From positions 3,596,001-3,660,000 of the forward strand of contig OZ004592.1 in the NCBI GenBank assembly GCA_963924555.1: a DNA stretch of 64,000 nt. Direction: 5' to 3'. Below, piece after piece: positions 20,726 through 56,267 of this stretch; position 1 is the stretch's first letter, and every line of letters starts with the position of its first letter. A program made the translations under genes and the position numbers. The notes beneath the pieces are model-generated. The model had not been told where the DNA came from, did no database searches, and worked only from the letters and a program-made list of their open reading frames with translations. Source of the stretch: Crambe crambe (taxonomy: Eukaryota; Porifera; Demospongiae; Poecilosclerida; Crambeidae).

Positions 20726-23230
20726 ATGACGGTATTGGATATCGTAATATTTTCTTTACTTGCCATGGCATTGGGAGAGGAAAAATTCGCAGTTTATGGT
20801 CTGGATTGTTATAGAGATGGAAATAGTAAGCTATCAGTTAATGCACAACTGATCAGCTAGAGTCTAGCTGCTTGACATGTAACCGTGGGTTGATAACTGA
20901 GGTCTACAATAATGTAGTAACCAAGTCCATAGCTTGCTCTCTAGAAATTAAGGCAATTATACCTGAGTAAAGTTTTTCCACTTTATATTTACCACATTAC
21001 AGAACCTCCTCGAAATGCAACCATTCATGAAACTCACTTTTTTGTTAATATTGAGTGCCTACAAGAGGAGTTAAGAATCACTTGGAATAAATCGAATGAA
21101 AGCATAGATGAAAGGTGGCAATACATTGCTACTGTGTACTACATTTGCTATGACAGAAATGGAACTGTTGTAAGCAAGACAAACAATATAATAAGCTGGA
21201 CTGGTCTTAGCTAGTTTATCATTGCTATATAGATCAAAGAGAGTGATCATCCTAAGTGGATTCAAACAAGTAATTCAGAGATGCCAATTTCCATCAGTAC
21301 TTCTGTGATCCATAATATTGTACACAACGGAGGAACATGTACGACTTATGGATGTCATAGACCAACCGCGGGTCCACACACCTTCATTGATCATTATTTT
21401 CAGTATAATCTCAATGACTCGTGCTCATACAGACCAGGTAAGATTTTCTGTTGTAAAAACCAGTCTGTAGGATAAAGAGGAGCTATAAGACTGATGTACT
21501 GTGGTGCATGTATTATGGGCTGAACTATGATACATTATTTTAGAGAGCAGTTCCAGCCAAAATGTGGACCCAGTACCTTCCACTTCCATTCTACACAGTG
21601 ATAGCACAACACATACAGGAGTACATCAGTCAAGAATTATTACACCATCACGTTCGATACTTTTTCAAACCAGTTCAAGTAAGATTATCACTAATTTATG
21701 ACTATAATCTTATATTGATGCCTGCACAACAGTTTTCTCAGAAGCAACTATACTAGAAATACATCAGTCCACAGTAACATTATCCAGTTCATTACCATCT
21801 CAAATGAATTCATGTGAGAGCAGCAACATTGAAGTACTATAGTAGCTATTATACTAGTTTTTTTTCTTCATAGTGACCTCAGATGGAACTCAAATAGAAT
21901 CGATTACTTCATCACTATCCACCTCAGTACCTTCTCTAATTAGTTCCTGTAAGAGTATAAACACAATCATGTATGCCTGCTTCAACTCAATGCCTACCCC
22001 ACAGCAACTTTGGATACAACCATGCAAGCAACAGAAATTCAGAGTAGCAATCTATTTGTTCCACCCACAAATTCACCACCACCAGGTACTCATATACCTG
22101 CAGTTTCTTCAGTGGCCTCTGATTTTGTACCAATGCTAGCATTACCACTGGTCATAATAGTGGTGATTTTGGTTGCATTGCTAGTGGGCTCACTTGTTTG
22201 TGCCAAGAGTATCCAATGTTCAAGGTACGGCATATTCAGAGCTACATGCAAAATAAATGGTGCATGATAATATATTATTTTTGCACAGGTCCAAGGATTT
22301 AAAAAAATTTTTGTGGGATACACAGTACATTGAAGTGAGTTATTTTTTAAATGCATGATACAATAGTTCACTGAATTATCATTTTCAAAATAGAAGACAG
22401 ATCCAATTGAAGTTGAACCTGATATAAAAAAGTGGGATTCAACAGTCAGTATTGTTCAATATCTCCGAATACAACAGGAATCTAATTGTGCAATAGGAAA
22501 TGATACAACACTTACTCTGCAAATGAAAGATTGCTCAAATAATTTTCAGCAGTCATCTAACTTAGTTTCAAGTACAGAAGAGTCAAAAAAGAGCACTTCA
22601 TATGTACCACAACCTTCACCACCAACACAGATTCATCCCACTTCCCTCAATCTCAATGGGAAGGGACTTTCTCAAGTTTCACCAACTTCTTCCGGCTATC
22701 ATTCCTCAACAACTTTCAGATCACAAATATCAACGATAAAAGAGACTGAAGTTTTGCTTCAATTGGACCCCAACATAACTTATGATAGTGAGGACGTTGA
22801 AGAGAATTCATCAAGTGCTGTGTATAACCTTCCACCCACACAAAATATGAAAATAGTCTGTTCAAATCCCTTATTCAGAACTAACAGTATTAGCACCAGC
22901 AGCATTACGTCTTCCAATTACAGTTATAACAGTAGGTCAACAATGGATCTACAAAATACTGTTTGCTGTGAAAGTGGACCCAACCAAAGTGACCTTAATA
23001 GTGTTGTGTTCACTTACAGTTCTTCAGACGATATTTCAGCAACAAAAGAAGCAAATCTAGTTATGCTGACATTCCCGTCTCTGTCAAGCAGTGATCATGA
23101 CGACAGCAGTGAGAGTGAAAGTGACTACGACAACAGCAACTACTCTCAAGAGCATCAGAATAATCAACTGAATGAGAGCCTGACTGAACTCAATCTGACA
23201 ATCAACCCATGCCATTTCGATCCACTATAA
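20726..23230 (+). CDS. Receptor R1: type I membrane protein with four-Cys ectodomain, 620 aa
   Basis: Nine exons join in frame: 20726-20825, 21003-21169, 21233-21437, 21544-21678, 21733-21813, 21874-21948, 22005-22224, 22289-22334, 22397-23230 (the last could also start at 22394, in frame). Exon 1 encodes a signal peptide (hydrophobic VIFSLLAMAL). Exons 2-3 encode the shared ectodomain: Cys in VNIEC and YYICY, then CTTYGCH and NDSC. Exons 4-7 give a Ser/Thr/Pro-rich stalk of phase 1-1 modules. The membrane span is about residues 295-320 (LVIIVVILVALLVGSLVC). The ~300-residue tail is Ser/Asp-rich; VQYLRI at Tyr365 fits the ITIM pattern, and SSGYHSS and AVYNLP are other Tyr sites. It lies tail to tail with R2, 173 bp apart. 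I do not recognise the family. Confidence 0.82.
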
Positions 23231-23403
23231 AATAATGCTATTTTGAATAGTTTTGCTAACATACATGGTGAGATACCTCATGCTAATAATGATTTATGAT
23301 GAGGGTAAAAGTATATATATATATATATATAGCACCACAATACTAAGTGATAATAATTGATGATATGCAACACAATAATAAGGGAGCAAAGCCTGTAACA
23401 AAT

Positions 23404-26400
23404 TTATTTCAAGCTCACTGATGAAGAGCTGTCAGTGACTGGACTGGCAGAGTCTGACAATGAAAGTTGAGAAGCAATTGATGGCTGGCTAGTTTGGAAG
23501 TTAACGTCTTGGGTGGACTCTTCTGAGTTCAAATATATAGTGGAATCTGAATCCCCAGTAAATTGTTCCTCAGTATAGATAATATAGTCAGAGGAGATAG
23601 ATGCACTAGGCACTGTAGAAAGCTCCAAATTATCAAGATAAAATAGATCACTTTCAATTGACGGAGACACAGATATTCGGTCAGCGATCTTGATAGGATA
23701 AAAACTGGGATCAATGGTCTGGGGGAGAAAAGGGAAGTTAATGTTGGAAGACAACATGCAAGTTCTAATATATATCATGAGATATACATGCAACTATATG
23801 TACACATCCAAGTTTTAGATCCAGGTACGTTGATCCTTGTGCTATATACCATAACCTGTACAATGACTCACCAACTGATCTCTAGGTTGCACTGTAGTAG
23901 TAATAACTGATTTATTATATGATATTCTACATAACCCTATAAATGCAATCCCTAAATGCAATCAAGGATTCCAGGAACTCAATTTACTCCCACTCAAAGT
24001 TCCAAACCATTTCTGTGGAAGTTAAAGTGTGGTCCTGAATCGCATGTGGTTATTTTATTTTATTTATTTTTTACCATACAAGATTGTGTGGTTAAAACCA
24101 CCACTTATCTCAACTATCACTCACTTATTATCAATGCACTGCCCTGCTGACTCAGTGGAAATATTTATGCAAGACTATTTAGTGCACACTCACAAGAGAC
24201 AATACATACCTGGTTCACTTCAAAGTTATGGTTTAAGTCCAATACCCTATGGAGAACAAAAGGATTGTGATAGATCAATACTAGCATGCAGGGCTAAATA
24301 CCTGTGTCGTGGCTTCAATATTATCCGATACCAACTCATAATCAACACCAAGAGGAATATGAAGAATAAAACAACCACTAAGAGCAGACTCAAAAGTCTT
24401 CCATTCTTAGGACCTGCCATATTTATATTCAAGAAGACACAAAGTATATTGAAAGTACAGCTAGTGATTTTTTTTTGTAACTGCTGTGGTTTTATGCAGA
24501 TGTCCTGTGGCTACTAAGCTATCAGTGATAGCCACATACAGCAGTATTGCAAGATAAAAGCAGCTGGCATCCATGAGGTGGAAATGAGGTCAGACACTTC
24601 TTGAAATAGTGCCACACGCAATTGTGGCATTATTTATCATAGTTAATGGAGTGAAACTTCCAAGGTACTTGCTGGATCCATGAAGAATCCTGTTCCAAAT
24701 TGTGTTTCCAGCCAGCGACACAAAAGACCCTCCAGCAAGGATCAACTGTGTAGCCATGTAAGGCTAAGCTAATACACTAGTGACTGGAGTTTAACTAAAC
24801 ATAAATTATAAATCAAATTCATAGCAGGAGTAAGTAAGGTTACACAAAGTCTTCGTGGAAAAGATCACCCACACCCCTCCAAGAAAATTAGCAAATGGAA
24901 GTGTAACATGATATATACTTAACTAAATTGTTGGGATAATTAAGTCCTTCTCTGGTCGTCAAGATCGAGTGTGTGGTATGCCACAAAAAAAAGCCTTTGT
25001 ATGCACAAAAAAAGTAGTGGCAGAGCATTTGGTTTTCCCATGACATTTGTTATACCCAATTAAACTCAAGCTCTTATGTTATTTGTCAGAACCTCACAGA
25101 TTTCTAGCAATCGATAGTGCACTGATTATCGTGAGTGGAGTCAAAATTCAGGGATTGCATCTTTTTTTCTTTCTCTGAGTGGCTTCTATATAATTATGTA
25201 GCTGTTATTTTTATTGTTCACAGCTACTTCATCCCTTGCGACACAAATCATACTCCTGTAAGTACATGGGAAAAAAAACAACATAAATGGGCACTGTATG
25301 GCTGGATATCAATGCTCTGGTGGTGGTAAATTGTCTATGAAGTAGCTTGCTAAAGACTACAGGTTAGCATCTACTGAAGGGGAAGGGGTGGGGGATATAT
25401 GTAAAATAACAGTATAGCATCTGCTGAAGGGGAAGGGGGTGGGTGGGGGTGGGGGAGGGTACTGCGCAGATATGTGAAATGACAATTAGACAGAAAGCAG
25501 TTGCAAGTACTTGCTTGAACACACACAAAATTTTTATTGGAAGTCATTCTCTGGGAATCAGAATAATTGTGCATCTATGATTCTGAACCCACTATGTGGA
25601 TATTACATACAGCAGAGACAGCCATTCTACATGCATGCAGCCCACCACAGAGCATAAATATAATGGTCCAGTTTCTGATTAGTTTAGGAGCTCCACTTCA
25701 CTTCCCATGCATTTCTAAGGAACCAGATAAGATTATCACATGATTATCCACAGCCCTATAATTGCAATAGTCTAGACCAAGCCATTGTATAATAGTGTTA
25801 GAAAAGAGAGTTCATATTTCATTTTGAATCCTGATAGTTCCTATATGCATACGATAACTATGGTAACTATGGAAGGCTGCAATTCCATTTGGACGAGTGA
25901 TATGTGCACACACCAGACAAGGAGACCCTTACAGATGCATCCAGCCAGTAATAATGTTTTCCCTCAAATCCACAGGGCTTACTGAGAGGTGACTGGATGT
26001 CTATAAATGGCTCATACTTACCTCTGTAGTGGGGTTTCCACATGGATGGATCATATTATATCCCTCCAGGCCACTAGAAGCCACAGTTTAGAACAAAAAT
26101 TAATGTTCAATATGTTGGTAGCTACGGCTTCCCATTTCTTAGAAATTGCACCCACTTACCAGATATCCACTAACCTAACATCCTATGAATTCTAACCAAG
26201 TCTATATCTGAGTCATGCACAGATAACGTGTGCAAAGTGCACTTTCAGATGGTGACCTACAATTGCAAAAGTTAAAAGTTGAGACTAATTATGGGCAGTA
26301 TTAATATTATAGAAGAGGGTCATGTTTTGTGTATGCAAGCAAACATACTGAGCCTGTGCATGTTCTCTGCTGCAAGAGGGGTTCTACCTCTGTGGCACAT

Positions 26401-29400
26401 AGACAGCATTATAGAGTTGCTAATTGGAAGTAAGCCTTAGGCAATGATCTAATAATAGCTAGTGGTTCAGCATAGCTGCTCTGTACCAACATATATAGAG
26501 TTGTAGGAAGTGAGATGATCTAATGGTATAGTTACTCACTCTGTAGCCAGCATAGAGTTGCTGATTAGATTTCCAATTGGAAGTTAGCGCACTGTTATGG
26601 CATCCCTGTATCCACAAGTGAGGTTTCACTTTAATCAAACCTATTCCATATGGGTGTATGGGAACGTCTGTCAATAGGTTCCTAATCATGTAGCATGTGT
26701 AGTTATAATATTGAGACTGTCACTAGATTTATTCTATGGCTTCTGGATTCCGTGAAGTGTGCATGGTGGTGTTGTCACAGGTATTTATATGTGGTTATGC
26801 ATCACACCTTCAGACCTCTAACTGTGTTTTTCACTCCAGTTGTTGTTGGTAAAGTAATCTATTATTCTGGTGTGCTTATGTAAACTCAGTGGTTTAATTA
26901 AGCTTATACAAGCATTTCCAGGACAACCGGCACAGTCATATTATAAGGTCAAAGTTCAAATCCATCATGCATAATACCTTTTAAAGGGGATGACATGACC
27001 CCAAGGACAAGAGGGTTCTGTCTACAAAAGAATAGAGCTACTCTCTTGGTAGTATAGGAAGACTCACATCTAATCATTACTTCATTCGAAGGAGTGATTT
27101 TTGCTGTGGTTTAATTTGAAAATAAAAAAGATGCTAGTGTGTGTGCTTCCACATGTGCTCATTTTGGCACTCATTAACTCTAAAAATAAACATGATTAGC
27201 TAGCCAGAGTTGCAGATTGCCTTAGCTAAGTGTTCAATTGTCATCTGCAGGAGTTGGATATCATCATTTTGTGTAACCATAATGCTTGAATTTCTTCTAT
27301 TGTGATTATGGTATGAAAATTAGGTTCTGTTCTAGCTAGACAATAATTATCAGCTGGATTTTGGCAGCCAAAGAAATGCCTGTCAGGATTCTACCTGGAA
27401 ATGGTTTTATCTAGAAATGCCAGTCAGGGTTCTATACCTAGAATTCCTGTCAGGGCTCTACTTAGCAATGCCTGTCAGGGTTTCCCCCTGCAGAATTTCC
27501 CCTAATTACCTAATTATGAATCAAGAAAAAACAGATGTGGTTTTAAATTAACAGTTGATGTGTTATAGATTTAGGAAGCAGTATCTGCTAATATGAGAAG
27601 ATTTGGGGGGATCCCCCTGCCTATTTTGGAGTATATGAGAGATTTTAGGAGTACTGTTATGGATGTCCAAGCAGTAGTTGTTTCTTGATGCATGTATATA
27701 CATGTATGGATGAACTGATTATTTAAGCCCTTGTCATGTCTGCACCAGGCTGTAGGTACTTGATCATGTTTTGGTGCACACTTTAAATATTTGCAATAAT
27801 AATTCGATGCTTGGATTTTTCCAGCATGTTTATCCTCCTCAGGTCCCACTGTAGTGGATAACATACCTTCATGCTCTCCCTTCCCAGTTTGCATTACTGC
27901 AGCAACACTTGGATCAAGAAGTTGCATTCTGGTCACACTAGCCTCAATCTCAATCTCGTTATCTCCTGAAGGGCCTAGAACAGTGAATAGAATTAGTAAA
28001 GCATACAAAGTATTGTGGCGAGCGCTAGTGAAGTTTTAATTGATGACATCGCTGTATTCCACCAGATGGAAGAACATACAAAACAAAAAATATAGCACCC
28101 CTCATTCGACTTTCTAGGTGACTCGCTTTGCTTGCCAATCATTAATAATATCATGCTACCAACACACCTTCAATTGTTTCCTGGGTATTATGGAATGATC
28201 CAGCACTGGGAAGTACCACCGTTATGGAGGAAATTTCTACAGAATCAGGGGATGTCACCTTGTCTACATTGCAACTGGTCATGCTACCAACACACCTTCA
28301 ATGGTATTATGGAATGATCCAGCACTGGAAAGTACTGTCATGGAGGAAATTTCAACAGAACCAGGGGATGTTGTAAGTGTCACCTTGTCTACACTGTAAC
28401 TGGTCATGCTGCTGACACTGGTCATGCTGCTGACACTGGTATTCTCTGCAAAAATGCAACCTTCCAATATAATAGTGCATATCTTTAACACCAGGAAGCC
28501 AGTAACTATCGATCAAAACAGAACTAAAAAATATCATGATTACATATTTGAAGAACTTAAGTTCACAATATTTTAGAGACTTGCATAAAAGGACTAGGAT
28601 TAAATATCTGTCATAACTCTAAATAATTGCAGAAATAGCAGGTTGAGCAATAATCAGATGCTCTAGGGCCTCAAGCATAATAAACCATAGAACCCACCAA
28701 ACCCTTCTGACTAATTATGGCTTCAAACTTTCTTGTTGCTATGTAAACTGCACATTACAACGTAAATAGGTGCGCTAGCTTTATCTATAATCAATTTTTT
28801 TTTCACCTTATGGACTTATGGTGCAAAAAATGTAGCAACAATTTGATTGGTCCATAGGAGTCCAATATATCGTACTCATTTCACTCAGCAACCACATTAT
28901 TAAAATACACACTGCTACAGAGGTGAATAGCAATTGGTCCAATTATGAAATTAATGATGATGATTATAATTTAGAAGTCTATTGCCAGCAACTGAATAAT
29001 CAAAGGTGCTAAAATTAATAATTAGATGTGATGAATGAGAGGTTCTCATTAGAGGTGATGAGTAGTAATTAGAGGTGCCAAATGATTAGAGGTGACAAGT
29101 ATAATCAGAGGTGCTGAGGTACACATTAGAAGTTGCCATCACATTACAGTCTTGGCTCACCATTAGGATAAATTAAGCAGCTGCTGTTGGGAAGTAAATA
29201 AAAGTCAAGATCTTCATCTTCATAGCAACCATAGAGTGTACAATTCAGCTTTGAAGAGATATTGAATTTCTTGGAATAAATGAAATTCATATTCCTGGGA
29301 AGTCCTTCGACCTCTACTATAATCTGAATATCAATAAGGAATCATTTTTTTGCATACAGAAAATTACTACATAGTAATAAATAATAAACCTGCAATGAAC

Positions 29401-31603
29401 AGTATACTACATCTACAGTGTACTAAGGGCATTGTTCATCTCAATTTTCTTGAACATAGACAGAGGTATGGGCAGATATATATGACTATAAGTGATTAAA
29501 TATAGCAATTGCAGAGTTAATCACATAATACTTTTATTAAGGTCGTCACGAAAAGAAACCGTTAGAGCATACATATGAGGCAAATAAGACCCCTCAGTTC
29601 ACTCCCTATTGTGATCACTAGGGCAATGTGCAACATTTGACAGCGAGCAAGCGAGCAAGTATTCCTAGGGCTTTTAGAGGTGATAGCTCCAATTTAAATC
29701 TTTGCTGCTGAGTTATGTGCAGCATGCATAGAAAGCTGTAATCTAGAAATCAATCAAGCAATCACAGAGTGTAGAATGTGAGAGTCAGCTCGCTCGCTGA
29801 ATTATTAGTTGTATAACACTTCAGTGATTTTAAGTGAGAAGCTTGGTAAAAACAGCCTGCATCTGGAACTGGATAAATGAAGTCCTACTCTACCACATTA
29901 ATTTTTTCATTAATAAAGAAACCGTCTACAACTGGTACAGACACACCAGGGAAGAATGTAAACATACCACAAAGCCTATTTCTGGTTACCAGGGATATGA
30001 ATGGTGGAAATAAGTATTAGTGTAACATCATACATGTGAAAACCATTTGGAATCAAGTTGGCTTATTTTCAAGGTAAAGAGCACACAATAAGATACTAAG
30101 AATGAGGATATTGCCAAGCATAAGCTGAGTCATAAGTGAGTACATAATAAGATACTGAGAATGAAGATGGCTATCTTTTATTGCCAAGCATAATTAAGCT
30201 ACAGTATGAGTAAACAGTTCACAATAAGATACTGATGTCTTGCTACAGTAAAGAGTACACATAGCTGAATACTGTTACAGTATAGTATGTTTGAAAATTT
30301 TGTAGGGTTATAAATTTTTTTCATCCCCAATGTTACCAATATGTATAATGTGGTACCTTGGAGGTAGTCTCACGCGCCAGATGCATTTGCGAGGAGGGGA
30401 AGGAAAAAATACGTCTGGTAACAATCGCCAGGTTTCCATTCTTTCAAAGAATGTGCATCACGTGACTCGTGGGATAATAATTTATTGCGTACACAATTAA
30501 AATCAGATCTGTCTAACTAAAGCCAGCTGAGATGGCTTCGCTGTGCAGAGCTTGTTCATGTGCTGCAACCCCCAAACTCAGGCATAGCATGGCCGACTCA
30601 AGTGCCAAGAAAGTCAACTAGTCTATAGCTAGCTATTCTGACCTACCTGTTGGAAGACACACAATCCTTTCCCGAAATAAAGCTCTTTAGAATTAAATGC
30701 TTGATAGCCCAGCTTGTTGGGAACAGCAGAGATTGCTGCACTGACAGAACTCTCTGAGTAGACACTCACAGCTAGCCATGGCTGGTGACGCACTTCCCCC
30801 CTCCCCCCCTCGCAAAAAAAAAGTGTGTGGCTGACTACCTTGGAGGGATGGTCCATCAGGGCCAATTATAACATCACAGTTGACCAGATATTTGATGGCA
30901 TATGTAGCACTTTGAATTTTCCACTGATTTCTTTCTATTGTACATAATAAGTGTCAGACCAGCAGGAAAGTGGCAACCAAACTGCAGTATAATTGGATGG
31001 TACTATCTGTCATCTTATAATGGCTAGCAGCTTCAGATCATCAACTATACTTCTATTCAGTAAGGGATATTCTTTGTACTGGTACTATCTGTAATCCTAT
31101 AATGTTCATTAACTATACTTCTATTCGGTAAGGGGTATTTTTTGTACTTACATGCATTTATTATTAGATTCAAGTGTTATGCACTTACTTTTTCGCTCCT
31201 TTTATCACAACTTATACTCAGTTCTCGAATAATTCCAGATTGTCCTTCACCCATCAATTGATAGGATGCAGACATCAGCACCCCACTGCAGTTCAGAGCA
31301 GTGTCCCCGTTGACTATAGCCTCCACTGTTAGTGTAGTAAGCAATGACAATTATCGTTCATATGACTCTACCCATTATGAAAGCCAAGCACATGTTCTAA
31401 GGGTGTGCTATGGGTCACAAGTGGATATCATTAATGAATCATTAAATGAATCTGTAGCTAGTATGCATGCAGTATTGATGACCATTACCCATTTTGCAAC
31501 TGAGCTAGTGGCAATTCTTACATGGATGATCATCGTAGCACAAGGAAAATCCCGAAGCCCACTTGATCAACATGACTCCATAAAGCAGAGATAAGAACTC
31601 CAT
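23404..31603 (-). CDS. Receptor R2: type I membrane protein with four-Cys ectodomain, 399 aa
   Basis: Minus-strand exon model, frame-consistent throughout: 31603-31522 (signal peptide, starts MEFLSLLYGVMLI), 31325-31189 (ectodomain half A: ALNCSG ... LSISC), 29323-29161 (half B: LNCTLYGCY ... SSCLIYP), 28445-28296 and 28263-28168 (two related Ser/Thr stalk modules), 27974-27867 (acidic module), 24413-24302 (membrane span LLSLLLVVVLFFIFLLVLIM), 24246-24210 (juxtamembrane), 23718-23404 (tail ending SSSSVSLK). All module junctions are phase 1, as in its neighbours. Tail Tyr sites include LFYLDNL, DYIIYTEE and TIYLNSE; none fits ITIM strictly. Large introns carry insertions, including one at 30364-30835. 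Additional stalk exons between 27867 and 24413 are possible. Function unknown. Confidence 0.75.
24414..27866. other. Long R2 intron without recognisable gene
   Basis: Inside the R2 model. It holds G-rich runs near 25435-25460 and short direct repeats around CCTGTCAGGGTTCTA (27378-27482). No exon with convincing splice sites was recognised. Confidence 0.5.
28140..28445. repeat. Tandem duplication of an R2 stalk exon with its flank
   Basis: Two ~125-150-bp copies share ACCAACACACCTTCAAT, GGAATGATCCAGCACTGG and GAGGAAATTTC. Each contains one exon (28263-28168 and 28445-28296), so the stalk grew by exon duplication. Confidence 0.8.
30354..30845. mobile_element. 472-bp insertion with 10-bp target duplication
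   Basis: TACCTTGGAG occurs at 30354-30363 and again at 30836-30845, bracketing 472 bp. The inner ends are loosely inverted (GTAGTCTCAC...TTTGCGAGG versus, reversed, GTCAGCCACAC...TTTGCGAGG). A related locus at 52827-52870 carries the same flanks (TAATGTGGTACCTTG, GGATGGTCCATC) with a single copy of the target, so it is an empty-site relative. A Mutator-like origin (about 9-10-bp duplications) is a guess. Confidence 0.7.
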
Positions 31604-40400: not shown

Positions 40401-40891
40401 TAATTTCCTGCAGTTCCTCCCACCATCTCTGATGTGGGAGTCATCACAGACAACAATACCCTGAGGATAAATGTCACATCCACTCCAGGTGACCCACCAG
40501 CCATGTTTACCTGGACCCACCAAGGAGAGCCCTTAGTCAATGACTCTAGAATTACAGTTAATAGCAGCAGTGGTGACCTGGTGATGGAGGACGTCCAACC
40601 CAGTGATAGGGGTGTGTATGAAGTCACAGCCTCTAATAATGCTGGAAATGCAAGCATCACTATCAATTGTGAGTTGATAACTCAGAGAGGGATGGGGCTT
40701 CACTGTAATGCACATCATGTCCTTCTTCACTGTGATGTCCTTGCTTTGGTGAAAATGTGTTGAGGTGTGGCTCATGTGTAAGTTGATGTCATACATACAT
40801 GGCCCCTGCATTTACCAAAACTTGTTGACAAAACACAAATTATCTATCATAGGGAGCGATCATGTATTTTGGCTATCAAAAATTATTGTTA

Positions 40892-40955
<64 letters not shown>

Positions 40956-43900: not shown

Positions 43901-44333
43901 CCCTGATCAATACATGATAGGCGTTAAATACACACAACTTGAGCAAGATTCATCTGGTCAATATATAAGTGGCGGTCTCACAGATATTTTGTCTGGATCT
44001 ATAAGTCTTTCACCAAATAGCCATGATTTCTCTGTTGATGATCATCTTTCAGGGGATGAAAAATCCATTGAAGCAAGTTCTTATGACCTGTTGCAACAAA
44101 AGTCAGAGGAAACCAAAGCTGGAAATTACATAGACATTGCTGATATCAAGGAACATGGCCAGATTTGTCTACATTACGGAATCAAATCTGGTAATCTTGC
44201 AGAGGATGTGTGTAGCATTTCATCTGTGCCATCTTATGATCTTGAATATCCTGAAAGTGGCAATCCACAGACCACTGAAGTGAACATTGATAAGATGAGC
44301 TATGACTATGAGATTGATGGCTACGTTCATTAG
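37405..44333 (+). CDS. Receptor R4: four-Cys ectodomain plus Ig-like modules, 787 aa
   Basis: Nine exons in frame: 37405-37611 (signal peptide plus ectodomain half A, LNLTC ... LSITC), 37667-37838 (half B, INCSLRGRY ... SHCFIG), 38617-38982 (Ig-1), 39662-39940 (Ig-A), 39996-40265 (Ig-B), 40414-40668 (Ig-C), 41161-41308 (membrane span VPIVILVFVTTLALLSFV), 42089-42137 (juxtamembrane), 43716-44333 (tail). The intron after 41308 has a GC donor (GCAAGT). An upstream in-frame ATG at 37333 would extend the N-terminus, but the ATG at 37405 gives a clean signal peptide. Ig-A and Ig-C lack the usual Cys pair; Ig-B has lost its second Cys. Ig-1 contains a 72-bp internal duplication. The tail has VKYTQL (about Tyr654) and SSYDLL, both fitting ITIM, plus GNYIDI and DGYVH. 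Cell-surface recognition or signalling is likely; the ligand is unknown. Confidence 0.83.
38712..38855 (+). repeat. 72-bp in-frame tandem duplication inside R4 Ig-1
   Basis: Copies 38712-38783 and 38784-38855 differ at only a few bases. Each encodes NITWQKDGVVLDL and SNECNNSNG, so the domain carries the core Trp strand twice. Confidence 0.93.
40880..40960. repeat. (TTA)n microsatellite in an R4 intron
   Basis: About 24 tandem TTA triplets. The Ile-rich open frame across it is an artefact. Confidence 0.95.
41436..41493 (+). other. Possible alternative terminal exon of R4
   Basis: After the acceptor TTATAG the phase-2 frame continues from the membrane exon for about 18 codons (RNTGVLDLLAEKEALYYAI) and stops at 41491-41493. 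If used, it gives a receptor with almost no tail. Evidence is only the acceptor and frame. Confidence 0.3.
41526..41750. mobile_element. MITE, CAGGGGTGTATCCAC family, copy 3, with TATAA duplication
   Basis: Ends CAGGGGGTGTATCCAC and GTGGATACACCCCTG are inverted repeats. TATAA flanks both sides (41521-41525 and 41751-41755), an exact 5-bp target duplication. It lies in an R4 intron. Confidence 0.88.
42935..43105. repeat. Dispersed repeat, inverted partner of 35586-35790
   Basis: Reverse-oriented copy of the segment upstream of R4, here within the last long R4 intron. Confidence 0.8.
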
Positions 44334-45194: not shown

Positions 45195-48100
45195 TTAAAA
45201 AGAAGTCACATAATTACTACTAAGAGATTGGGAGAGGGATCTATTGAATTCAGGTGAAAAAATGTCGGAAGGTGCATAGCCAACACTGCTGTCAAAATGG
45301 GACACTTCGCTAGAAATGTAACCAGAAGTTGTATCACTTTGACTATAAATGCTTGGAGGATCAATAATGGGCACAATCCTGTGTAAAGGTTCAGCATCAT
45401 CTTCAGAATTCTCATCATAATATTCTTCATCGAAGCCATATATACCACTGCCATCAGAGTCTTCATTGTGATTAAAATTCGGAAAATTCCTTTCTTCCTC
45501 CAAGACATCACTTCTTTGATATGGAGTGGTTTCAAAATCTACTGGAAGAGTTTGGACAATCTTGTTCTCTTCTTCACCACATGTTTCATTTCTTTCTGGC
45601 ATTGGATGATCAAGATTTATTGATGAAAGACTCCTTTGGTCATCTTCAAAGTCTAAATGTGATGTTCTGTCCACATCATCCATGACATATCCATTATTTA
45701 TGTTGGAGGATGGAGAGTTAAGCTTTATTGACAGTACGCTGTCTTGACTGAGATTCAATTCAAAGCTTGGACATGGTGACATTCTATCAGCCATAGAGTC
45801 AGCAGAGCTGTTTTTCTCAGTGTTGTGAACCTGTTCATTAAATAATACATCAAATGAAGAAAGCTCAGTCTTTTGGTAAGGTTCCATAACTGAATCTGAA
45901 GTTAGTGCCATGTCATAAAGTGTCAATTTTTTTTCATCATTCTTATCTTCAGAGACAACATATCCAGACCCACTTTGGTTGGATCCATTCACTATCATTG
46001 AAGGCTTAGCATAAGACTTATTATATTGTGCAGAGCGAGTGGATTGGAATGGATACTGGTACAACGGAAAAAGCAGACTTGATTCAGACAACGATGGAGC
46101 CATGGAACAGTTGTTTTTTTCTGGTTGGATATGAAGCTCAATATTGTGCTGAGTAAAAAATAATAGGAAGGATGATAAAATTACAATACTGGGTTGGGTA
46201 GATGGTATCTCAGCCTTTGCATAGAAAACACAGATAATTCTCTTCTGTTTGCGATAAAGCACAACTATTTTTCTACTTGGATGTGGTTGCCCTTGTAATA
46301 ATAATAATAAATACATACCAGGTAGGAAACAATAATAATAACTGGCCACCCTAAGGAAAAGCATCTTTTTACACCTTGCCTCTTTAAGAGTCACAATCAA
46401 AAAAAAATGTACATCTCTGGCTGTAATGCAAGGATATAGCATAAGGATGGTATAATAAATACTGCATGTATAGCACCAACTGTATGTAGATGTACATGCA
46501 CAAATAGATATAATCAAAATGCAGTATTCAATGTTGATTACCCTTTACCGATCATGTCAAAGAATTATGCATGAGCAATCTACTTAGCATGCCTTGTAAT
46601 AATAATAATGTACATACATACATAACTTCTTTATGCATTTTAGGCATAATAATTATAAGGCCACTTTCATACAACCTTCGTTTGGTTGGAAAGTAAACCA
46701 AATCTTATAGTTCTCAGGCACTGCTCAGAAAACACAGATACTATTTTCTTTTCTATGGTCATAGGTCATAGGGCAGGGGCAGATCCAGCAATTTTGAAAG
46801 GGAGGGGTCCAACATGCCCCTCCTGTGGAAGCAAAAAATTAGTTAAATTAGAATCCCTTTAGAGAATAAAACACAAAATGAGTCAATAATCAAAAAAGTA
46901 CGGAAGTTTGGAATAATCATCCTATTAACAACTTGTCAACAAATGCAACTTCAAAATTAAAAAAGGGGGGTCCGGACCCCCTGGACCCCTACCCTGGATC
47001 TGCCCCTGTAGGGATAATAGCTAAAGCTCTCAATTGAACCAAACTCTGATAAGGTTTAGAATACAATGATAAAGCTAGCAGCTAGTCAGCATAACTCAAC
47101 AGCAAAATCTTCTAACGAGTTGAAGCACTAAAGAATACTTGCTTGCTTGCTCGCTGTCAAATGCTGCACATTGCCCTAGTAACTATTACTTTACTTCATT
47201 ATAATCTTGATTAGGTAATGTGTACTTACATCTCCAAAATACTCAAAATTCATCCTTGAATGGCGCAGTCTGAGTAAAAGGAGAGAATGTTACAAAATGT
47301 CAATCATAGTGCATGGAAAAGCAAATATTATATTTTTGACTTACATTTTAAACTTCAGAATAACATAAGTGGTGGTCATGATGATGATTGCACATATCAG
47401 CAGAAGTGATACAGAGGAAACTGAAGTGATAAGTTTCATTCTCTCACCTATAAAATGAAAAAGCCATAGATGATCTTGTCTGTTTTGTTATGGACACAAC
47501 TTATGCCCAAAGAAAAATAAGGTCGTCCCCAACATATTAAATATTCTAAGAGCAAAGTTACCAACAATAGAGTCCAAATCTGCAGTATGATTATACAGTG
47601 ACTGTCAGCAACTATTTTGGGGTACAGGTGTCTGAATTTACGAACCTGTGATGTCAATTGCAACTGTTGTGGAGTCTAAATCTGTTGCAACTGTTGTGGA
47701 GTCCAAATCTGCGGTGTGATTTATACAGAGACTGTCAGCAACTATTTTGGGTACTGATGAAACTAACTATACTGTATCTAATGGTCCTGATGTCATTAAA
47801 TTATTAGATCTTGGTTCAGATTAAGTTAGAAAAACCACATGGATAATAGCCATAGAGCAAGAGTATTATATGAATTTACCACAAGGAATGATCTCTTGAC
47901 TGGTCTCATTGAAGTCTGATATGACTCTACAGGTATAAGTCTGACGAGCATCACAGTTGAACCGATTCAGTTCAAAAGAGCTGGTGGCATACACTTCAAA
48001 GGTACCAGTGCTGTTTGATGTAGTGAAATTCATGGGTTGTGGACTCCACTGGATTTCTGCACTAGGATAAGCAACTGCACTGCATGTTACACGAATCACA

Positions 48101-51100
48101 TTATCATCCACTTCTTCAATAGCGGGTCCCATCATATTCATAACTGTTGAATTAAATGTGATATTAAGGGGTGTGTAGTTAAGTCTCTATTTTCACTCAC
48201 AATTGACAGTCACATTGACAGCGATGCTTGCATTTCCAACATTATTAGAGGCCATGACTTCATACACACCCCTATCACTGGGTTGGACATCCTCCATCAC
48301 CAGGTCACCACTGCTGCTATTAACTGTAATTCTGGAGTCATTTACTACGGGCTCTCCTTGGTGGGTCCAGGTAAATGTGGCTGGTGGGTCACCTGGAGTG
48401 GACGTGACATTTATCTTGAGGGTATTGTTGTCTGTGACGACTCTCACATCAGAGATATTGGGAGGAACTGCAGGAAAGTATATAGCACATAAAGAATTCC
48501 AGTATTGGAGGCAAGCACTAACTATTTGTGGCTATCTGTGCCCCACCACCCCACAATACAATCTTCATAGCTACTCTATGGCTAATGGACATCCCAAAAA
48601 AAATCTTTAGATTTTGTAGTCTTTCATCCATGCATTTATAACATGATTTGACTTACCACAAGGTTCAAGAGTGATGTCTTGACTGGTCTCATTGAAGTCT
48701 GATATGACTCTACAGGTATAAGTCTGACGAGCATCACAGTTGAACCGACTCAGTTCAAAAGAGCTGGTGGCATACACTTCAAAGGTACCAGTGCTGTTTG
48801 ATGTAGTGACATTCATGGGTTGTGGACTCCACTGGACTTCTGCACTAGGATAAGCAACTGCACTGCATGTCACACGAATTGTATTATCGCCCACTTCTTC
48901 AGCAGTGATGTTCACATTCACAACTGTATCGTGGACTCATTCAACTATGCAATAGTACCAAATGAGTAATCAACTCACAATTGACAGTCACATTGACAGT
49001 GATGCTTGCATTTCCAGCATTATTAGAAGCTGTGACTTCATACACACCCCTATCACTGGGTTGGACATCCTCCACCACCAGGTCACCACTGCTGCTATTA
49101 ACTGTAATTCTGGAGTCATCGACTAAGGGGTAGGTCCAGGTAAATATGGCTGCTGGGAATCCTGGGGTGGACATGAGATCTATTTTGAGGGTGTCTCCAG
49201 TATTGTTGACTACGATAACTCTTGTACTCAAAGAGATGGTGGGAGGAGCTATTGGTAATCAAGAGAGGATAGTAATATAACGGGTACACGTATTTACTAT
49301 CTGGGTGGTTCTCATTGGATCACTTCACTAAACAAAAACAAGGATTTTACTACCAGCCACCAATAAATTGGCTTGGAACCTTTCTTCCACTGCAAAATTT
49401 TGTATCTAAATGGATTGATGAGTCATGCATATAGCTAGTCAGGTAGAAGAAAAACTTGCTGCAGGAGTCTCAGTGGCTAATTGTAGCAGGAACTAAGCAT
49501 GTTCAGTACAAGGCCACCAAATCCTTCAAAGTGGGAACCCTTTCAGCACCCCTTTAAGTGTCCACGTACTTATATATGAACTTCTTGGGCTACTGTTGTC
49601 ATTATTATTACATCACAGGAAATTCCAATGTTACTGTGGTCATTTTGTCAAGGGCTACACACTATAGGCTGGCCACCGCATCCAGGGCTACACACTAACA
49701 CCTAACTGGAACTTACAGGGGAAAGTACAGCTTGCTTCAAAATGACGATATTCTAAGTAATCTAAATTTCTTGGTATATAGCATCCTACCACTGTACATC
49801 CACTGCTATTAGTCTTCAATGAAGTAAAACTCCTTTGTGACCCATAATCTTTATAGTCAAAAATCTGTGCAAGAAAGGGGAGAAGGAAATAAGCCATCCT
49901 GCTAGCTGGAACATAATTTCCACACCATTATGTTGTGATAATGCTGAAAGTCAACATTTTGAATGCCCATAGCTCACTAAAAGTAGCTCTTTGATTTTCA
50001 AACTTAAAAAAACAAAAAAAAAACATTATAAAATAATAGCTAATTATGATTAATCCAAACAAGCTATAATTACATGGTTACATTCATGCATCCGGCCCCA
50101 AAGGACTTGGCTGGACAGCAGCTCATTAGGCAAGTACTGCTAAATATTTATAGCTAACATAGGCTCCAACTTTTTAAAAACTACTTCAAGGACGTAAGCC
50201 ATACCCACCCACCAACAACACAGCTAAATCACATCCAAACCACACCCATCAAGTTTGTTATTATGATTTTTAAACATCAAAGAACTTGATTCTGATTGGT
50301 TCAGTGACAATAGACCATTTTTTATCGGGAGTGTGTAGTTACATGATACTGTAGAAGGTATGATGATCCTTACCTAAAAATCGTTCTTACGTAGGGCGGA
50401 AGCTTCGAAGCTGGCTAGCTGTATTGAAGAGTGCCTTCTAGTTGCTGTGCAATAGGCTGCACTAAGCAGTACAGCAAAGAAAAAGGACAGATTCCTATCA
50501 AAATCCAAACTGGATGCTTGGCCACTTAAACATCATCAACCCAGGTACCATATGGTCTTCTTTGTCAATCTTGAGCTTTTCAGCATACCTTCTTTCTAGA
50601 GAAGTACAATAGGATCGTGCTCTCTGAAAAATAATATTACTATTAGTTAGCTGCCATTGTTTCTTGCCCTACACAACATGCGACTAGCGCGCGCCCTAGC
50701 TAATCGCGTGGGTGGGTCTATCATGTGAGCTGATGAGTCACACCCCCGACAAAAAATGGTCTATAGAGTAGCTCTCTTGCACTTCTTGAGAAGCTCTTTT
50801 TAAATTTGAACAATAATAGTGAACTGTTTGCTTACTGCATTCAGTTCATGCTCAAAAATCAAAGCATGACCTAGCTGTCTGGCCAAATCCAGGACAAACA
50901 GCAGGTGCATTCAGGACACAGGACAACACAGGGCAAAATCAACAAATCCAGGACTGTCCTGGACATTTCAGGACAGTTGGAGCCTATGAGTTATGTGCAG
51001 TATAAACCATGAATAGCTAACCAAATCATCTTCCTACGCCAATCAGCTATCTAATCTTAGCTATAGCTGCAGCTCTAATGACAATGTCGCCATACTTACA

Positions 51101-51327
51101 TCATCTTTAGGTGAGGGTGAGCAGTGAGGAGGGCAAAACACATTTACCCTTACATAACTGTTGTTTTCACCGACACTTAAAGAAAAACCATCTGGATTGC
51201 AGGTGAATGACCGAGTCTCTATCTTTTTCTGATCTGTACAACTTGACGGCCATTCCAGTTCACACAATTCTCCAGTTGACGAAAGGAGTACTAAAATTAT
51301 TACACGAATTAAAAAGTCCATGATCAT
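45195..51327 (-). CDS. Receptor R5: four-Cys ectodomain plus four Ig-like modules, 846 aa
   Basis: Nine minus-strand exons in frame: 51327-51100 (signal peptide plus ectodomain half A), 49864-49717 (half B, SSGCTVVGCY ... EASCTFPC), 49248-48979 (Ig-A), 48923-48657 (Ig-B), 48467-48201 (Ig-C), 48143-47880 (Ig-D), 47447-47345 (membrane span SLLLICAIIIMTTTYVIL), 47269-47230 (juxtamembrane), 46148-45195 (tail). Ig-B and Ig-D keep both cysteines (VTCSAVAYP, YTCRVISD); Ig-A and Ig-C have none. Ig-A to Ig-C closely match those of R4. The 317-residue tail is unlike R4's, very Ser/Asp-rich, with a repeated GY motif (GYVVSED, GYVMDDV, GYISSEV, GYAPSDI) and acidic stretches. No strict ITIM is seen. It faces R4 tail to tail. 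A second ATG at 51321 is an alternative start. Confidence 0.83.
46774..47008. mobile_element. MITE, CAGGGGCAGATCCAG ends, TAGGG duplication
   Basis: Left end CAGGGGCAGATCCAG and right end CTGGATCTGCCCCTG are inverted. TAGGG flanks both sides (46769-46773, 47009-47013). It lies in the R5 intron before the tail exon. Confidence 0.88.
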
Positions 51328-51354
51328 CGATGTTCTCTCCGGGGCTCGTGCTCA

Positions 51355-51366: not shown

Positions 51367-52555
51367 TTAACATTGTGAGGGGTGGGGCTGCAGATAGGTA
51401 GATCTAGAAGATCTTAGATATTCATTTAGCTCTTGTCGAGACCATTCCTAGCACAAATGGAGCCTTGTCATTATCATTTCACTTCTAAAATAAGAAGTTG
51501 GTTTACCCCCCTTAACACTACAATACATAATTATAGTTATAGAGTCTAGACCATAGACCATAGCTAATCAAGCCAGGTCTTCTTTATAGAAAGTAGCTAA
51601 TTATTCTTTCAATTATTCAGACTTAGAATAATGTCTAGGATATATATGCTTGGGCAGCCAAGAAATTTAGCTAGCCCTAGCTTGCTGTATCTTAGCAGTT
51701 TAAATTCAAATAGTCAATATGGTTTTAGCTATAGCATAGGAATGGGTGTAGCTACACATTAATCCAAAGCTGTGATCTAGTCACACTATTCAATGGTACA
51801 AGTCTGCAAGGTTCAAGATAGCTATATCTGATACTTCACTTTTACACCATATAAATTGTACCTGATATATTGGGAGCTAGCTTCCTTGAGTATATATTAT
51901 TGGGCTGCATTTAACAGAAGTCCACTTGGACTACTATATCACTTACTTTGTAAGTCAACAGCAATATTATTAGTATATGAACAGACACTCCTACAATTAT
52001 TGTTTCAAACTTTCTCATAGTTGTTTATCAATTTGCTTCATTTTTTAAAACCATCTAATCCCAGGTCTCAGCCTGAGTGACACACTTACATGTATAGCTT
52101 ATACTACTCCATCTCCCAGCAACCAGCACCATGATCACAGGACTTCTCATGGCCAGCTGAGCCCAGGTCATACAACCCAATCTGCTCCAATGCTCTGTTT
52201 GGATCATAACATGTCATCATCCATTCTAATAACTTATGAATCCCTGGACACCTGGACATAATCATGGCCAAATCCATGCATGCATTACCCATTTAATTTT
52301 TTATTGAGAGCCAACTGCACTGGAGGTGTAGCTATGGGAAGGTTAAGCTAGCCAATTTCTTATATGCAATACACTGCCATGACTGCACACTAGCTATTTG
52401 TATAGCTGCCAACCATCCATACACTAACAGTGGAGGCTATAGTCAACAGGGACACTACTGTACTTTGAACTCCAGTGGGGCGCTACACCCTAGCTATCAT
52501 GCTATCAAATATCTCTTCCATGCTTATGCTTATTAAAAAAACAACAACAACAAAC

Positions 52556-52584
52556 TAATAATAATACTGATAATAATAATAATA

Positions 52585-52662
<78 letters not shown>
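52556..52662. repeat. (TAA)n microsatellite
   Basis: Long run of AAT/TAA triplets with few interruptions; it creates artefactual Leu- and Ile-rich open frames. Confidence 0.95.
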
Positions 52663-53059
52663 TCATCAATAACAATGGCAATAAAAAAACAAAAAACAAA
52701 GGAAAAATATTTATTAACAGGCAAGTAGAGAGCCTACCTGTATCCCTCCTCCTAATTTCAATAACCACACCCATTATTACCCAACTACTCTATCTCTACT
52801 TCACTCACCATGAGTGCTCTCATGTGTAATGTGGTACCTTGAGGAGGGATGGTCCATCGGGGCCAATTTAACAAATTGCAAATAGAGTTAAAGATAATGA
52901 TGAACACCACACCTCAGGAGGCAAGACATTCCACATAGCTAGTAGTAGCATGGGGATAAAAAGAAAATTCATAAGCCCTGGTCTGTGTGCTTGGGACTTG
53001 TGGATTCACACCCTGCATGCAGTTTAACTAGCAAGTGAGGTCTGGTAATAGCTGACCCT

Positions 53060-53206
53060 TTACCATATTTCCCTACCTTACCATATTTCCCTAACTTTCC
53101 CTAACTTTCCCTACCTTACCATATTTCCCTACCTTACCATATTTCCCTAACTTTCCCTAACTTTCCCTACCTTACCATATTTCCCTACCTTACCATATTT
53201 CCCTAC
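53060..53206. repeat. Minisatellite of TTACCATATTTCCCTA and AACTTTCCCT units
   Basis: Alternating 18-bp and 10-bp pyrimidine-rich units in tandem, about eight blocks. Confidence 0.9.
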
Positions 53207-54463
53207 CTGGGGATCCAGCTAGGTGGAGTTGCGGGACTAGGGACACACACACTGGTTGAATTGCAGTGTAAGAGGTGGGGTGAGGTGCCCCACAAAGTGT
53301 TGCAGTACTCTGAAAGACATCCTTTAAGCAACGCATGCAAGGTCACAGGTGTGATTGAAAAATCAGTCGAGATAGAAAGTGTGACCTTGAAAATACAAGT
53401 CAAATTACAGTGCAAAATAAGCATGGGTATTATCAATCCAATTTATTGGTAATAATAATCAAGGCTCTTCAGTGGAGTAGGAATGGGGGGGGGGGGGGGG
53501 TGGGCAGGGGGACACCACCCCAATACTATAGATGGAGGGGCACTGCCCCCCAACAATAGGCTAACTTGAGTAAATTGAAAGTAAAAATATAGCACCAAGG
53601 ACCAAGCAATTACATGAATGCTGCAATTTCACTGCTGCTTGCTGAATGCATATGCTCAATGTAGTGACAGAAGGATTGATTACTTTGGACATTATAATTA
53701 TATTACTGTGATTAACTTCCCCCCAATAAATTTCCTATTCATACTCCGCTGCTCTGAGATCTGGTGTCTCATAGTGAGATGTGCCTATTGATCTCATGCT
53801 CATAACAATAGGAAATCATTTTGCTGTGACAAGCATTGAGGATATTAGTTGATCAGTTATGTGCATGCTCATTGTAGCTAGGCTCTTGTAGACCCTTTAG
53901 ACCCTTTAGCTTTTCTAACATAGCATCCAGGTGAGGGGTTTTTTGATAAAAATTAAAGAGTATACCTTCAAGTTGAAGCGAACTTCTTCCCGTTTGTTTA
54001 TAAGGGAAAATATCCTCTTTCACAAATATTTGAGTGGGGAATAGTCATTACCAATTCAACTACACGGATTTGAGCCAGGCTCCTTTTGAGGATACTCGTA
54101 TTATATGTATTGAGAAAAAGGATGCTGGTATTATGCGATTCTCACTACCAGTTGAGAGGTCCGTCAGGTAGCTATAGCTGTGTAGAGTGCTTGTTACCAA
54201 CAAGAATCAGAGATCAAGTCTACAGAATTGAGCATCAGATTTTGAGCTAGCCTGTCTGGCTTATGAACAAAAGGTGGAGTTGCAACCTACCCTTGGATCC
54301 AGCCCTCTAGTTTATAAGGTTCTGTGTTTAAGAACTCCTATAAGTTATAAAATTCACTTTTCTAATCTAGAGGACTATATTTGGCAGGTCCCTCAGGATT
54401 TATAGGTTCAACATCAAGACAATCAACATCATTATTGTAATAATAAATAATGTCAGTTGTTGC

Positions 54464-56267
54464 TTAGGTTATGTCTATTCCACTATCATCGTCAACTACA
54501 TTATTACATTTCATGATGTCTGGAATATTGAAATGACCACCATTCTCAGTGGTGTCCGTTCTTTTCTCAGAGTCATCACCCAGTGCTAACAGGTTTGGAC
54601 TATCAGCAGATATAAAATCTTTCAAATCACTATTTTCCAGCAGGACTTCATTAGATAACGTTCTTTGTTCGCTCTCTCTGTTAATTTTCAAGTGATCTCC
54701 TACATTAGATGATGAGCAGAGGGCAATTGTATTGCTACTGAAAGATGTAGTTATAAAAGTCCGTTGATGGCAGCAATCACAGCCATGTCCACGTGATCTT
54801 TGGTGATGACAAGATCCACATATATTCAGATAACCATCAGAGGAACTCAGATTCTTGTGATGACTGGGACTTAACTTTTTTGGAGTAAGTATGACATTGT
54901 TACTATCGCCACAATTTTCTGCAACTTTCTGTTTGATATCAGTCGAATATTCCTTCATAGGATACACTAGAGTGTCCAGAGATACTGTAACAATCATTTT
55001 GCTGGTAACTTCTATAGGCTCAATATCAGCATAGAGTGTCTGCAGAACAATAGGTACAGATGAATCCCAATCATGTTTCTATGCATATCTAGTTATACTG
55101 GAGAGTATTATAGTTAGTGGTAGTCTGGAGCAGTCACAAAGTATACTAGCTGCATACCTCACAATAAATATTGCTTAGCATTTTATGTTGAAGCTTGCGA
55201 TCTTGGTAGCAATACCTGCACGAGTATAGTGTAACACAATGATGCACTCAGTGCTCTCTAGGCTATATTATAGCTCTATACCTTTTATATATCATAAAAA
55301 GAGCCACTAGCAATCCGCTGGCAAGAATAGTTGAAATGAAAAGTGCCACAACTGTAGCTGCCACCTTGTCAACACCAGAAACACGACTTGTACTGGTTAC
55401 ATGTACTGTCGCAGGTGATGTGTGCACACAGAGTTCATTATTACTGCAATTTGGTTGACTTGATGCTGTAGTATCTGCTATTATGGTTGCCATTGAGGTA
55501 TTACTTGTAGTCATTACTGATGGTGATACAGCCTTTGTTGTAGGTTGACTTGATGCTGTAGTATCTACTATTATGGTTGCCATTAAGGTATTACTTGTTG
55601 TAGTCATTACTGATGGTGTTGTGGCAGTTGGCCTTGGGATGACAGGAATATCAGATGTTGTTACCAATGTATCTGTGTAAGTGAGAGAGATTAACCTCTC
55701 CTACAATGGCTACCAATAGACCAAGCTCACCTTGTTGTACATTACAGGTAACACTAATTGTCTCATATGGTTCAAATGGACCATATTCGCAGGAGAGGAC
55801 ACACATTCTTGCAACTGATGATAATGTTGAACTACTTGTAAAATATGCCTTACGGGTTGAAAAAGGTAATAAGTCTCCACTTTCTACAGTACCATTCTTG
55901 AACAAAGAGAACAGTATGTACAAATAATTCCACCTAGCTATGCTGTAGCCAATTGACCTACCAAGTCATAGCACTTGAATTTTAACTCAGAAAATTCCAA
56001 GGGCTCGTCACTACGCCACCTCCATCCACCTTCAATAAAGGTTTCATTGCAGCAGATTGAGAGGCTTAAAACGTCATCTAGAATAATGTGAAGGAAAATT
56101 TAGCTGCTGTATCTAACTATAGCTAGTTACGAATGCTTACTAAATAGTGTTCCTTGTGAATCCTCCACATCAGCGATACTTTTATTGCAAACCGCAGTAG
56201 CGAGACAAACACTGAAAATGCCACTATTCAGTAAATAAAGCCAGCTAAGCCTAAGCTTTAACTCCAT
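54464..56267 (-). CDS. Receptor R6: type I membrane protein with four-Cys ectodomain, 477 aa
   Basis: Six minus-strand exons join in frame: 56267-56141 (signal peptide, starts MELKLRLSWLYLLN), 56077-55962 (ectodomain half A, SICCNETF ... KFKCYDL), 55896-55731 (half B, MCVLSCEYG ... VTCNVQQ), 55672-55282 (Thr/Ser/Pro stalk with repeats, then membrane span VAATVVALFISTILASGLLV), 55215-55158 (juxtamembrane), 55039-54464 (tail). The stalk contains two near-repeats around TTASSQPT. The 191-residue tail opens with TLYADI (Tyr289), matching the ITSM pattern TxYxx(V/I), and holds DGYLNI and a His/Cys-rich patch (ICGSCHHQ, CDCCHQR) that could bind metal. It is the outermost family member; no further copy is visible to its right. 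Confidence 0.83.

Follow-up and report, generated by a model that had tools for sequence, protein, structure and literature searches.

The window analysed here, a stretch of 64,000 nucleotides from the demosponge Crambe crambe (positions 3596001-3660000 of contig OZ004592.1, below C15, in an assembly of 143 Mb and 119 contigs), carries six genes, R1 to R6, that are probably cell-surface receptor genes and that are built to one exon blueprint. Further members, R7, R8 and R9, lie beyond the window. Three of the genes (R4, R5 and R8) share a block of immunoglobulin (Ig) exons and introns that was copied between them recently, so that a young Ig cassette sits on diverged backbones, a case of mosaic evolution. 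The reading that we prefer, at a probability of roughly 55%, is that the genes encode recognition receptors of a lineage-restricted family, coupled to kinases, with mosaic ectodomains and tails that offer tyrosine docking sites. What is new here is the copying of the Ig cassette, the enrichment of GY[IVLM] in the cytoplasmic tails and an N-terminal domain that matches no Pfam family. One assembly and one individual stand behind all the results, and the gene models are predictions, rebuilt from splice sites and reading frames.

The exon blueprint shared by the six genes is real. In each of them a membrane exon running from phase 1 to phase 2 (written 1-2, start to end) is followed by a juxtamembrane exon of 37-58 bp (2-0) and by a single tail exon, just as the first-pass annotation of this DNA had described, and the tails are open over 104-533 codons. 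The short ectodomain and the phase 1-1 modules that it had listed were likewise recovered on rebuilding: a phase-0 intron divides the ectodomain in R1, R4, R5 and R6, the second part being 0-1, and the ectodomain of R3 is a single 1-1 exon, while the stalk and Ig exons, where separate, are all 1-1, the stalk of R6 being merged with the membrane segment in one exon. In R1 and R6 a signal exon (0-1) precedes two ectodomain exons, 1-0 and 0-1; in R4 and R5 the signal peptide is fused with the first half of the ectodomain as one 0-0 exon. Two of its statements, that all six models are frame-perfect and that all have a signal peptide, held in part. R1, R3, R4, R5 and R6, on both strands, are open from ATG to stop; the open frame of R2 covers the second ectodomain exon and what follows it up to the stop, no candidate for the first ectodomain exon being present upstream, where six signal-peptide-like open reading frames (ORFs) are listed, one of them a possible signal-peptide exon (Table 1). 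An N-terminal hydrophobic window lies above threshold in R3, R5 and R6 and below it in R1 and R4. A membrane segment with a mean hydropathy of at least 2.4 is present in all eight proteins (R1-R6, R8 and R9), of which R2, lacking the first ectodomain half, and R8, taken from the membrane exon on, entered the protein-motif tests as partial sequences.

The strongest evidence against a chance arrangement comes from outside the sample, in that R9 and the 3' half of R8 have the same phases and juxtamembrane exons of 43 bp. Both were found, 155-170 kb past R6, through ectodomain-exon profiles alone, which were made from the first-half exons of five genes and the second-half exons of six and run against the ORFs in 264 kb and later in 314 kb of the 7.24-Mb contig. 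Beyond the training genes, the first-half profile matched R7 (E 5e-8) and the second-half profile matched R8 (E 2.5e-4) and R9 (E 0.006), with the best non-family ORF of the latter search at E 0.14. R9 consists of a signal exon (0-1), ectodomain exons of 1-0 and 0-1, two Ig exons (1-1), a stalk-membrane exon (1-2), the 43-bp exon (2-0) and a single tail exon, and the 3' half of R8 of a membrane exon (1-2), the 43-bp exon (2-0) and a tail. R7 is a truncated duplicate of R6 (C15:3667428-3668420, minus strand; 82% identical over 1075 columns) with a membrane exon that, judged by eye, looks broken. A strict splice-site scan from membrane donor to tail acceptor, its rules fixed after the models were known, yielded exactly one in-frame juxtamembrane candidate in seven of the eight genes, R8 and R9 included, and in each case this was the modelled exon. 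On resampled sequence the chance of at least one in-frame candidate was 0.01-0.34 in seven genes and 0.64 in R4; frame-breaking candidates in the same intervals numbered two each in R2 and R8 and one each in R5, R6 and R9.

Leave-one-out profiles, in which each exon was ranked against the non-family ORFs of a file of 10,219, placed the second ectodomain exon first in four of eight genes (R2, R5 and R8 at E 3e-5 to 9e-5, R9 at E 0.05) and that of R3 fourteenth, and R4 is additionally linked to the family through its Ig cassette. Common descent of the receptor genes is supported, in part of them by sequence as well. It had been proposed that the blueprint is the main proof of this descent; R8 and R9 repeat the plan, and R1 and R6 are indeed joined mainly by blueprint and Cys spacing, with R2, R5, R8 and R9 recovered by profile as well. 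The description of the family as fast-evolving finds no direct support, the only figure being a dN/dS of 0.97 between R6 and R7, which says little because R7 is broken, and mosaic evolution is seen instead.

Pfam Ig domains are found in R4, R5 and R9, the modules of R8 are Ig by DNA identity, and R1, R2, R3 and R6 have none. When R4, R5 and R8 are compared by blastn at 1e-8, only blocks of Ig modules align. The main common block, of about 1 kb, has the order IgA1-intron-IgB1-intron-IgA2 in all three genes, with exon identities of 86.6-97.1% between pairs and a 43-bp intron whose identity is 97.7-100% whichever two genes are compared. For the longer intron the identity is 95.8% in the R5-R8 pair, and 72.1 and 78.2% between these two genes and R4 (57 and 50 gap columns, 72% being the R5-R4 value). 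Upstream flanks of the cassette align at 37-45%, 30 random pairs giving a mean of 45.5 and a maximum of 57.3, and the downstream flanks, judged by blastn only, do not align beyond the Ig blocks; the R4-R8 similarity extends about 70 bp into the following intron, and a second IgB is present in both R5 and R8. Selection at the protein level cannot explain introns so alike within genes whose other introns fail to align; the block is a recent copy passed among old genes, the latest copying being that between R5 and R8. Since the Ig modules are phase 1-1, exchange preserves the frame, and the outer parts of the receptors may be rebuilt by such exon movement. The A-B pair of Ig modules in R9, 71-74% identical to the other modules overall with one stretch of 180-200 bp at 85-87%, is older. 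By eye, a unit of about 23 residues (NITWQKDGVVLDL.VSNECNNSNG) is repeated within the first Ig exon of R4.

Clustered genes, Ig modules in four of the eight, recent exchange of the cassette and low identity between paralogues would also suit receptors for allorecognition or homotypic adhesion of the kind represented by cnidarian Alr, in which polymorphic ectodomains bind the same allele on a neighbour and the tail reports self; sponges are reported to discriminate self from nonself (PMC5450542). We regard this as unlikely, for the cassettes have been copied with little protein change (dN/dS of 0.15 for IgB1 between R4 and R5) rather than diversified, the N-terminal domain common to the genes gives no Ig match in Pfam, and the words 'immunoglobulin' and 'receptor' are absent from the main text of PMC5450542. 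Two loci farther along the contig, at C15:4.86 and 5.43 Mb, hold Ig modules related to those of the cluster (72 and 73% DNA identity); the first lies near an SRCR exon and a hydrophobic segment seen by eye, and an SRCR expansion has been reported in a sponge (PMC10855680). It is accordingly conceivable, if doubtful, that the genes encode microbe-sensing pattern receptors allied to the sponge SRCR receptors; R1-R6 and R9 are without an SRCR match, and shared Ig modules speak of exon traffic, not of a common ligand.

The N-terminal domain, of about 100 residues, is Cys-rich and probably all-beta. It matches no Pfam family, and R1, R2, R3 and R6 have no Pfam match whatever at E 1. Two AF2 models of R3 had pLDDT values of 51.0 and 59.8, too low to judge the fold, and the R3 ectodomain had no match among PDB sequences at E 10. 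A word-based search with residues 25-165 of R1 gave 12 candidates, none of them at E 10, and one with the whole of R5 gave three Ig proteins at E <=1e-5, named from coelacanth, moth and fish, among the 7991 best word-sharing candidates scored. Against its own genome R3 has six matches, all of them its own exons, and no such sponge receptor family is named among the PMC titles and abstract beginnings examined. On these searches the family is probably restricted to sponges.

The tails of the six genes in the window hold 54 tyrosines. GY[IVLM] occurs in them five times, compared with 0.44 in shuffled tails, none of 2000 shuffles reaching five, and GY seven times, compared with 2.05 (2 of 2000 reach it). 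The likeness to vertebrate inhibitory receptors that had been suggested for the family was not borne out by the same test: immunoreceptor tyrosine-based inhibitory motifs (ITIM, [SIVL]xYxx[ILV]; 5 vs 3.75), activation motifs (ITAM; 1 vs 0.31) and switch motifs (ITSM; 1 vs 0.36) are all at chance, each count being matched by 526-631 of the 2000 shuffles (631 for ITIM). YxxQ, at 2 vs 2.49, is not enriched either. Six of the eight tails (R1, R4, R5, R6, R8 and R9) contain GY. The tail of R5 holds SGYVVSED, NGYVMDDV, SGYISSEV and VGYAPSDI, that of R9 has ESGYILSDQ six times, and that of R8 has SGYILL and KGYITL; this last tail was found after the motif test and with its two GYI sites is a fair check of the GY motif. 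The form SGY[IVL]x(0,1)S makes up 9 of the 17 GY sites in the eight tails, six of the nine being the R9 repeats, and could act as a phosphodegron-like element, the listed degron form being DSG-x(2,3)-S/T (PMC7444064). Near the membrane there is an ES..SI-like window, the best window being reached by 1 of 60 shuffles with six genes and by 2 of 60 with eight.

A number of observations weigh against a family of kinase-coupled receptors as read here. The tails of R2 and R3 lack GY, and the shuffle figure is optimistic because the GY motif was noticed before testing. The similarity of the tail starts is weak, and a PI.[IV] stretch ahead of the ES..SI-like window in R1, R2, R3, R6 and R8 has been seen by eye only. 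Restriction to sponges depends on two word-based searches, of a type that can overlook fast-evolving orthologues. Flagellin_D3 passes its cut-off in R4 (27.6 vs 24.2 bits, residues 288-339), a match discounted because it falls on an Ig module of that gene. In the leave-one-out test the second ectodomain exons of R1 and R4 rank beyond 1400th and that of R6 gets no score, and the first-half exon is recovered in none of six genes; for R1 and R6, which fail here, membership is argued from blueprint, Cys spacing and position. R4 requires a GC donor after its membrane exon, and the strict scan misses its juxtamembrane exon, with zero candidates. The difficulties with R4 would be understandable if the family were partly an artefact, made up of decaying pseudogenes or hand-picked exons with a coincidental common plan, as would the missing 5' end of R2, the truncation of R7 (by eye), a decayed R3-like fragment and the fact that the models are predictions. 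Such an artefact is very improbable, given that R9 and the 3' half of R8 keep the plan out of sample, that the tails stay open over their length and that dN/dS is <=0.82 in 18 of 21 Ig exon pairs (1.61 in one pair).

The anatomy of the genes, their blueprint, the copying of the cassette together with its introns and the enrichment of GY[IVLM] are established by these results. If the preferred reading of kinase-coupled recognition receptors is correct, the products would be single-pass type I receptors in which a signal peptide is followed, in complete members, by the Cys-rich recognition domain of about 100 residues, then by a variable stalk (Ser/Thr-rich in R1, R2, R3 and R6, formed of Ig modules in R4, R5, R8 and R9). 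A single helix would come next, and after a short juxtamembrane stretch the protein would end in a long acidic tail, rich in Ser and Tyr, in which no enzyme domain is recognised. The N-terminal domain would bind either a ligand or an adjacent cell, the tail would be phosphorylated by a cytosolic tyrosine kinase, and SH2 proteins would dock on the phosphorylated (S)GY[IVL] sites. The ectodomains would diversify as the first domain diverges and as phase 1-1 modules are exchanged in blocks, every recombinant being in frame. The family may have an immune, allorecognition or signalling role.

To our knowledge, the surface receptors by which sponges discriminate self from nonself are mostly unknown. 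The compact family described here, with its shared exon plan, its docking-type tails and an Ig cassette copied not long ago, offers named loci for testing. It also provides one concrete way in which ectodomains might be remade in an animal that lacks adaptive immunity: an entire cassette, exons and introns together, is copied from one receptor gene to another with the frame kept. JAK and STAT have been reported in sponges, with no IL6R-type receptor reported before Mollusca (PMC13203501). A bolder extension, which we hold as speculation that is unlikely to be right, would have the demosponge cluster represent an early-animal kinase-coupled receptor system. Its receptors would share a recognition domain that is new and a tail that docks SH2 proteins through GY sites, would be the surface receptors so far missing from sponge cytosolic tyrosine-kinase (possibly JAK-STAT) signalling, and would gain specificity when intact, intron-bearing Ig cassettes move between diverged backbones, a traffic that the uniform phase 1-1 plan makes frame-safe.

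Table 1. Predicted receptor genes and related features, in window coordinates. Phases are start-end; ecto a and ecto b, first and second ectodomain exons; TM, membrane exon; JM, juxtamembrane exon.
Feature	Position	Strand	Exons and remarks
R1	20726-23230	+	signal peptide 20726-20825 (0-1); ecto a 21003-21169 (1-0); ecto b 21233-21437 (0-1); stalk 21544-21678, 21733-21813, 21874-21948 (1-1); TM 22005-22224 (1-2); JM 22289-22334 (46 bp, 2-0); tail 22394-23230
R2, 5' end not established	23404-29323	-	ecto b 29161-29323 (0-1); stalk 28296-28445, 27867-27974 (1-1); TM 24302-24413 (1-2); JM 24210-24246 (37 bp, 2-0); tail 23404-23718
R2 candidate signal-peptide exon, unproven	31522-31603	-	0-1, donor gtaaga; one of six signal-peptide-like ORFs
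R3	33045-34739	+	signal peptide 33045-33114 (0-1); whole ectodomain 33173-33469 (1-1); stalk 33655-33792 (1-1); TM 34011-34104 (1-2); JM 34279-34321 (43 bp, 2-0); tail 34371-34739
R4	37405-44333	+	signal peptide + ecto a 37405-37611 (0-0); ecto b 37667-37838 (0-1); Ig 38617-38982 and cassette exons 39662-39940, 39984-40265, 40414-40668 (all 1-1); TM 41161-41308 (1-2, GC donor); JM 42089-42137 (49 bp, 2-0); tail 43716-44333
R4 Ig cassette	39652-40672	+	IgA1-intron-IgB1-intron-IgA2; DNA-level match to R5, R8
R5	45195-51321	-	signal peptide + ecto a 51100-51321 (0-0); ecto b 49717-49864 (0-1); Ig 48979-49248, 48657-48935, 48201-48467, 47880-48143 (1-1); stalk 47646-47708 (1-1); TM 47345-47447 (1-2); JM 47230-47269 (40 bp, 2-0); tail 45195-46148
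R5 Ig cassette	48201-49258	-	IgA1-IgB1-IgA2; short intron 100% to R4, 98% to R8
Decayed fragment of R3-like tail exon	51799-51937	-	78% to R3 over 146 columns
R6	54464-56267	-	signal peptide 56141-56267 (0-1); ecto a 55962-56077 (1-0); ecto b 55731-55896 (0-1); stalk + TM 55282-55672 (1-2); JM 55158-55215 (58 bp, 2-0); tail 54464-55039

Elsewhere in the window, a transposase ORF that we take to be of piggyBac type lies on the minus strand at 10746-12473 (PF13843, E 9.4e-74) and has a long acidic run at its N-terminus. The minus strand also has, at 9843-10187, a weak match to class I tRNA synthetases, under the curated cut-off and presumably resembling a leucyl-tRNA synthetase exon, and the plus strand an open frame of 1109 aa at 1621-4950 with no Pfam match at E 0.01. 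An intronless P450 ORF nearby has one match at 100% identity and is 55% identical to a sequence of the demosponge Halichondria panicea and 41% to one of Branchiostoma belcheri, among the matches listed (the best 120 of 2159). Farther along the contig, an open frame at C15:3835878-3836516 (minus strand) has a Ser/Thr-rich stretch, a hydrophobic segment by eye and no Pfam match at E 0.01, and the region C15:4855001-4865000 (minus strand) combines an SRCR exon (E 1.6e-9) with an Ig module akin to the R4 cassette and, by eye, a hydrophobic segment.

Comparison with known systems begins with the cytokine receptors, a type to which the genes had been provisionally referred. Like class I and class II receptors, the proteins are single-pass, without a kinase domain and with a long Tyr-rich tail, a short juxtamembrane exon standing ahead of the tail exon; in the proposed GY docking sites, a Y with I, V or L after it agrees with the loose STAT5 motif Y[VLTFIC]. 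The SG-x(2,3)-S of the tails resembles the degron listed in PMC7444064. In R1, R6 and R9 the phase-0 intron of the ectodomain lies between phase-1 introns, a 1-0-1 order that forms part of the class II series 1-2-1-0-1-0 (PMC8863823), and the JAK and STAT reported in Porifera would suit highly diverged but true class I/II receptors upstream of them. That is nevertheless quite unlikely. WSxWS, sought with a relaxed regular expression, the class I CHD pattern CX9-10CXWX26-32CX10-15C (PMC1963337) and strict box 1 are absent from all eight proteins (R2 and R8 being partial), loose forms of box 1 being extracellular or at least about 70 residues into the tail; YxxQ is not enriched, no Pfam cytokine-receptor match was obtained, and CRLF3 is reported as missing from Porifera (PMC6797617). 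The complete series of intron phases, 1-0-1-(1)n-2-0 in R1, R6 and R9, 0-1-(1)n-2-0 in R4 and R5 and 1-1-1-2-0 in R3, differs from that of class II, in which the membrane exon is 1-0 and not 1-2. As to the two fibronectin III domains (D200) of such receptors, Pfam is silent on the N-terminal domain and the models are too poor for its fold. The sponge proteins differ further in having one short Cys domain and added Ig modules, and what is left of the cytokine-receptor proposal, with the tested class I signatures absent, is a possibly similar way of working.

Cnidarian Alr genes encode clustered type I receptors with Ig modules, tyrosine-bearing tails, a V-set-like N-terminal domain and an invariant tail motif. 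The sponge genes share the clustering, the type I architecture, the Ig modules and the tyrosines in the tails, but their first domain has no Pfam Ig match, R1, R2, R3 and R6 are without any Ig match, and neither ITAM nor ITIM is enriched. The KIR and LILR receptors have phase 1-1 extracellular modules and separate membrane and short juxtamembrane exons, all of which recur here, whereas the sponge genes show no ITIM enrichment and have another first domain and one long tail exon. With the sponge SRCR receptors there is a link through the locus with the SRCR exon, whose Ig module is of the same lineage (72% DNA identity), and a difference in that R1-R6 and R9 have no SRCR match. Because the tested class I signatures are absent, the class II phases differ and the ITIMs are at chance, the genes are filed neither as cytokine receptors nor as recognition receptors of Ig type, though they may work somewhat like one or the other.

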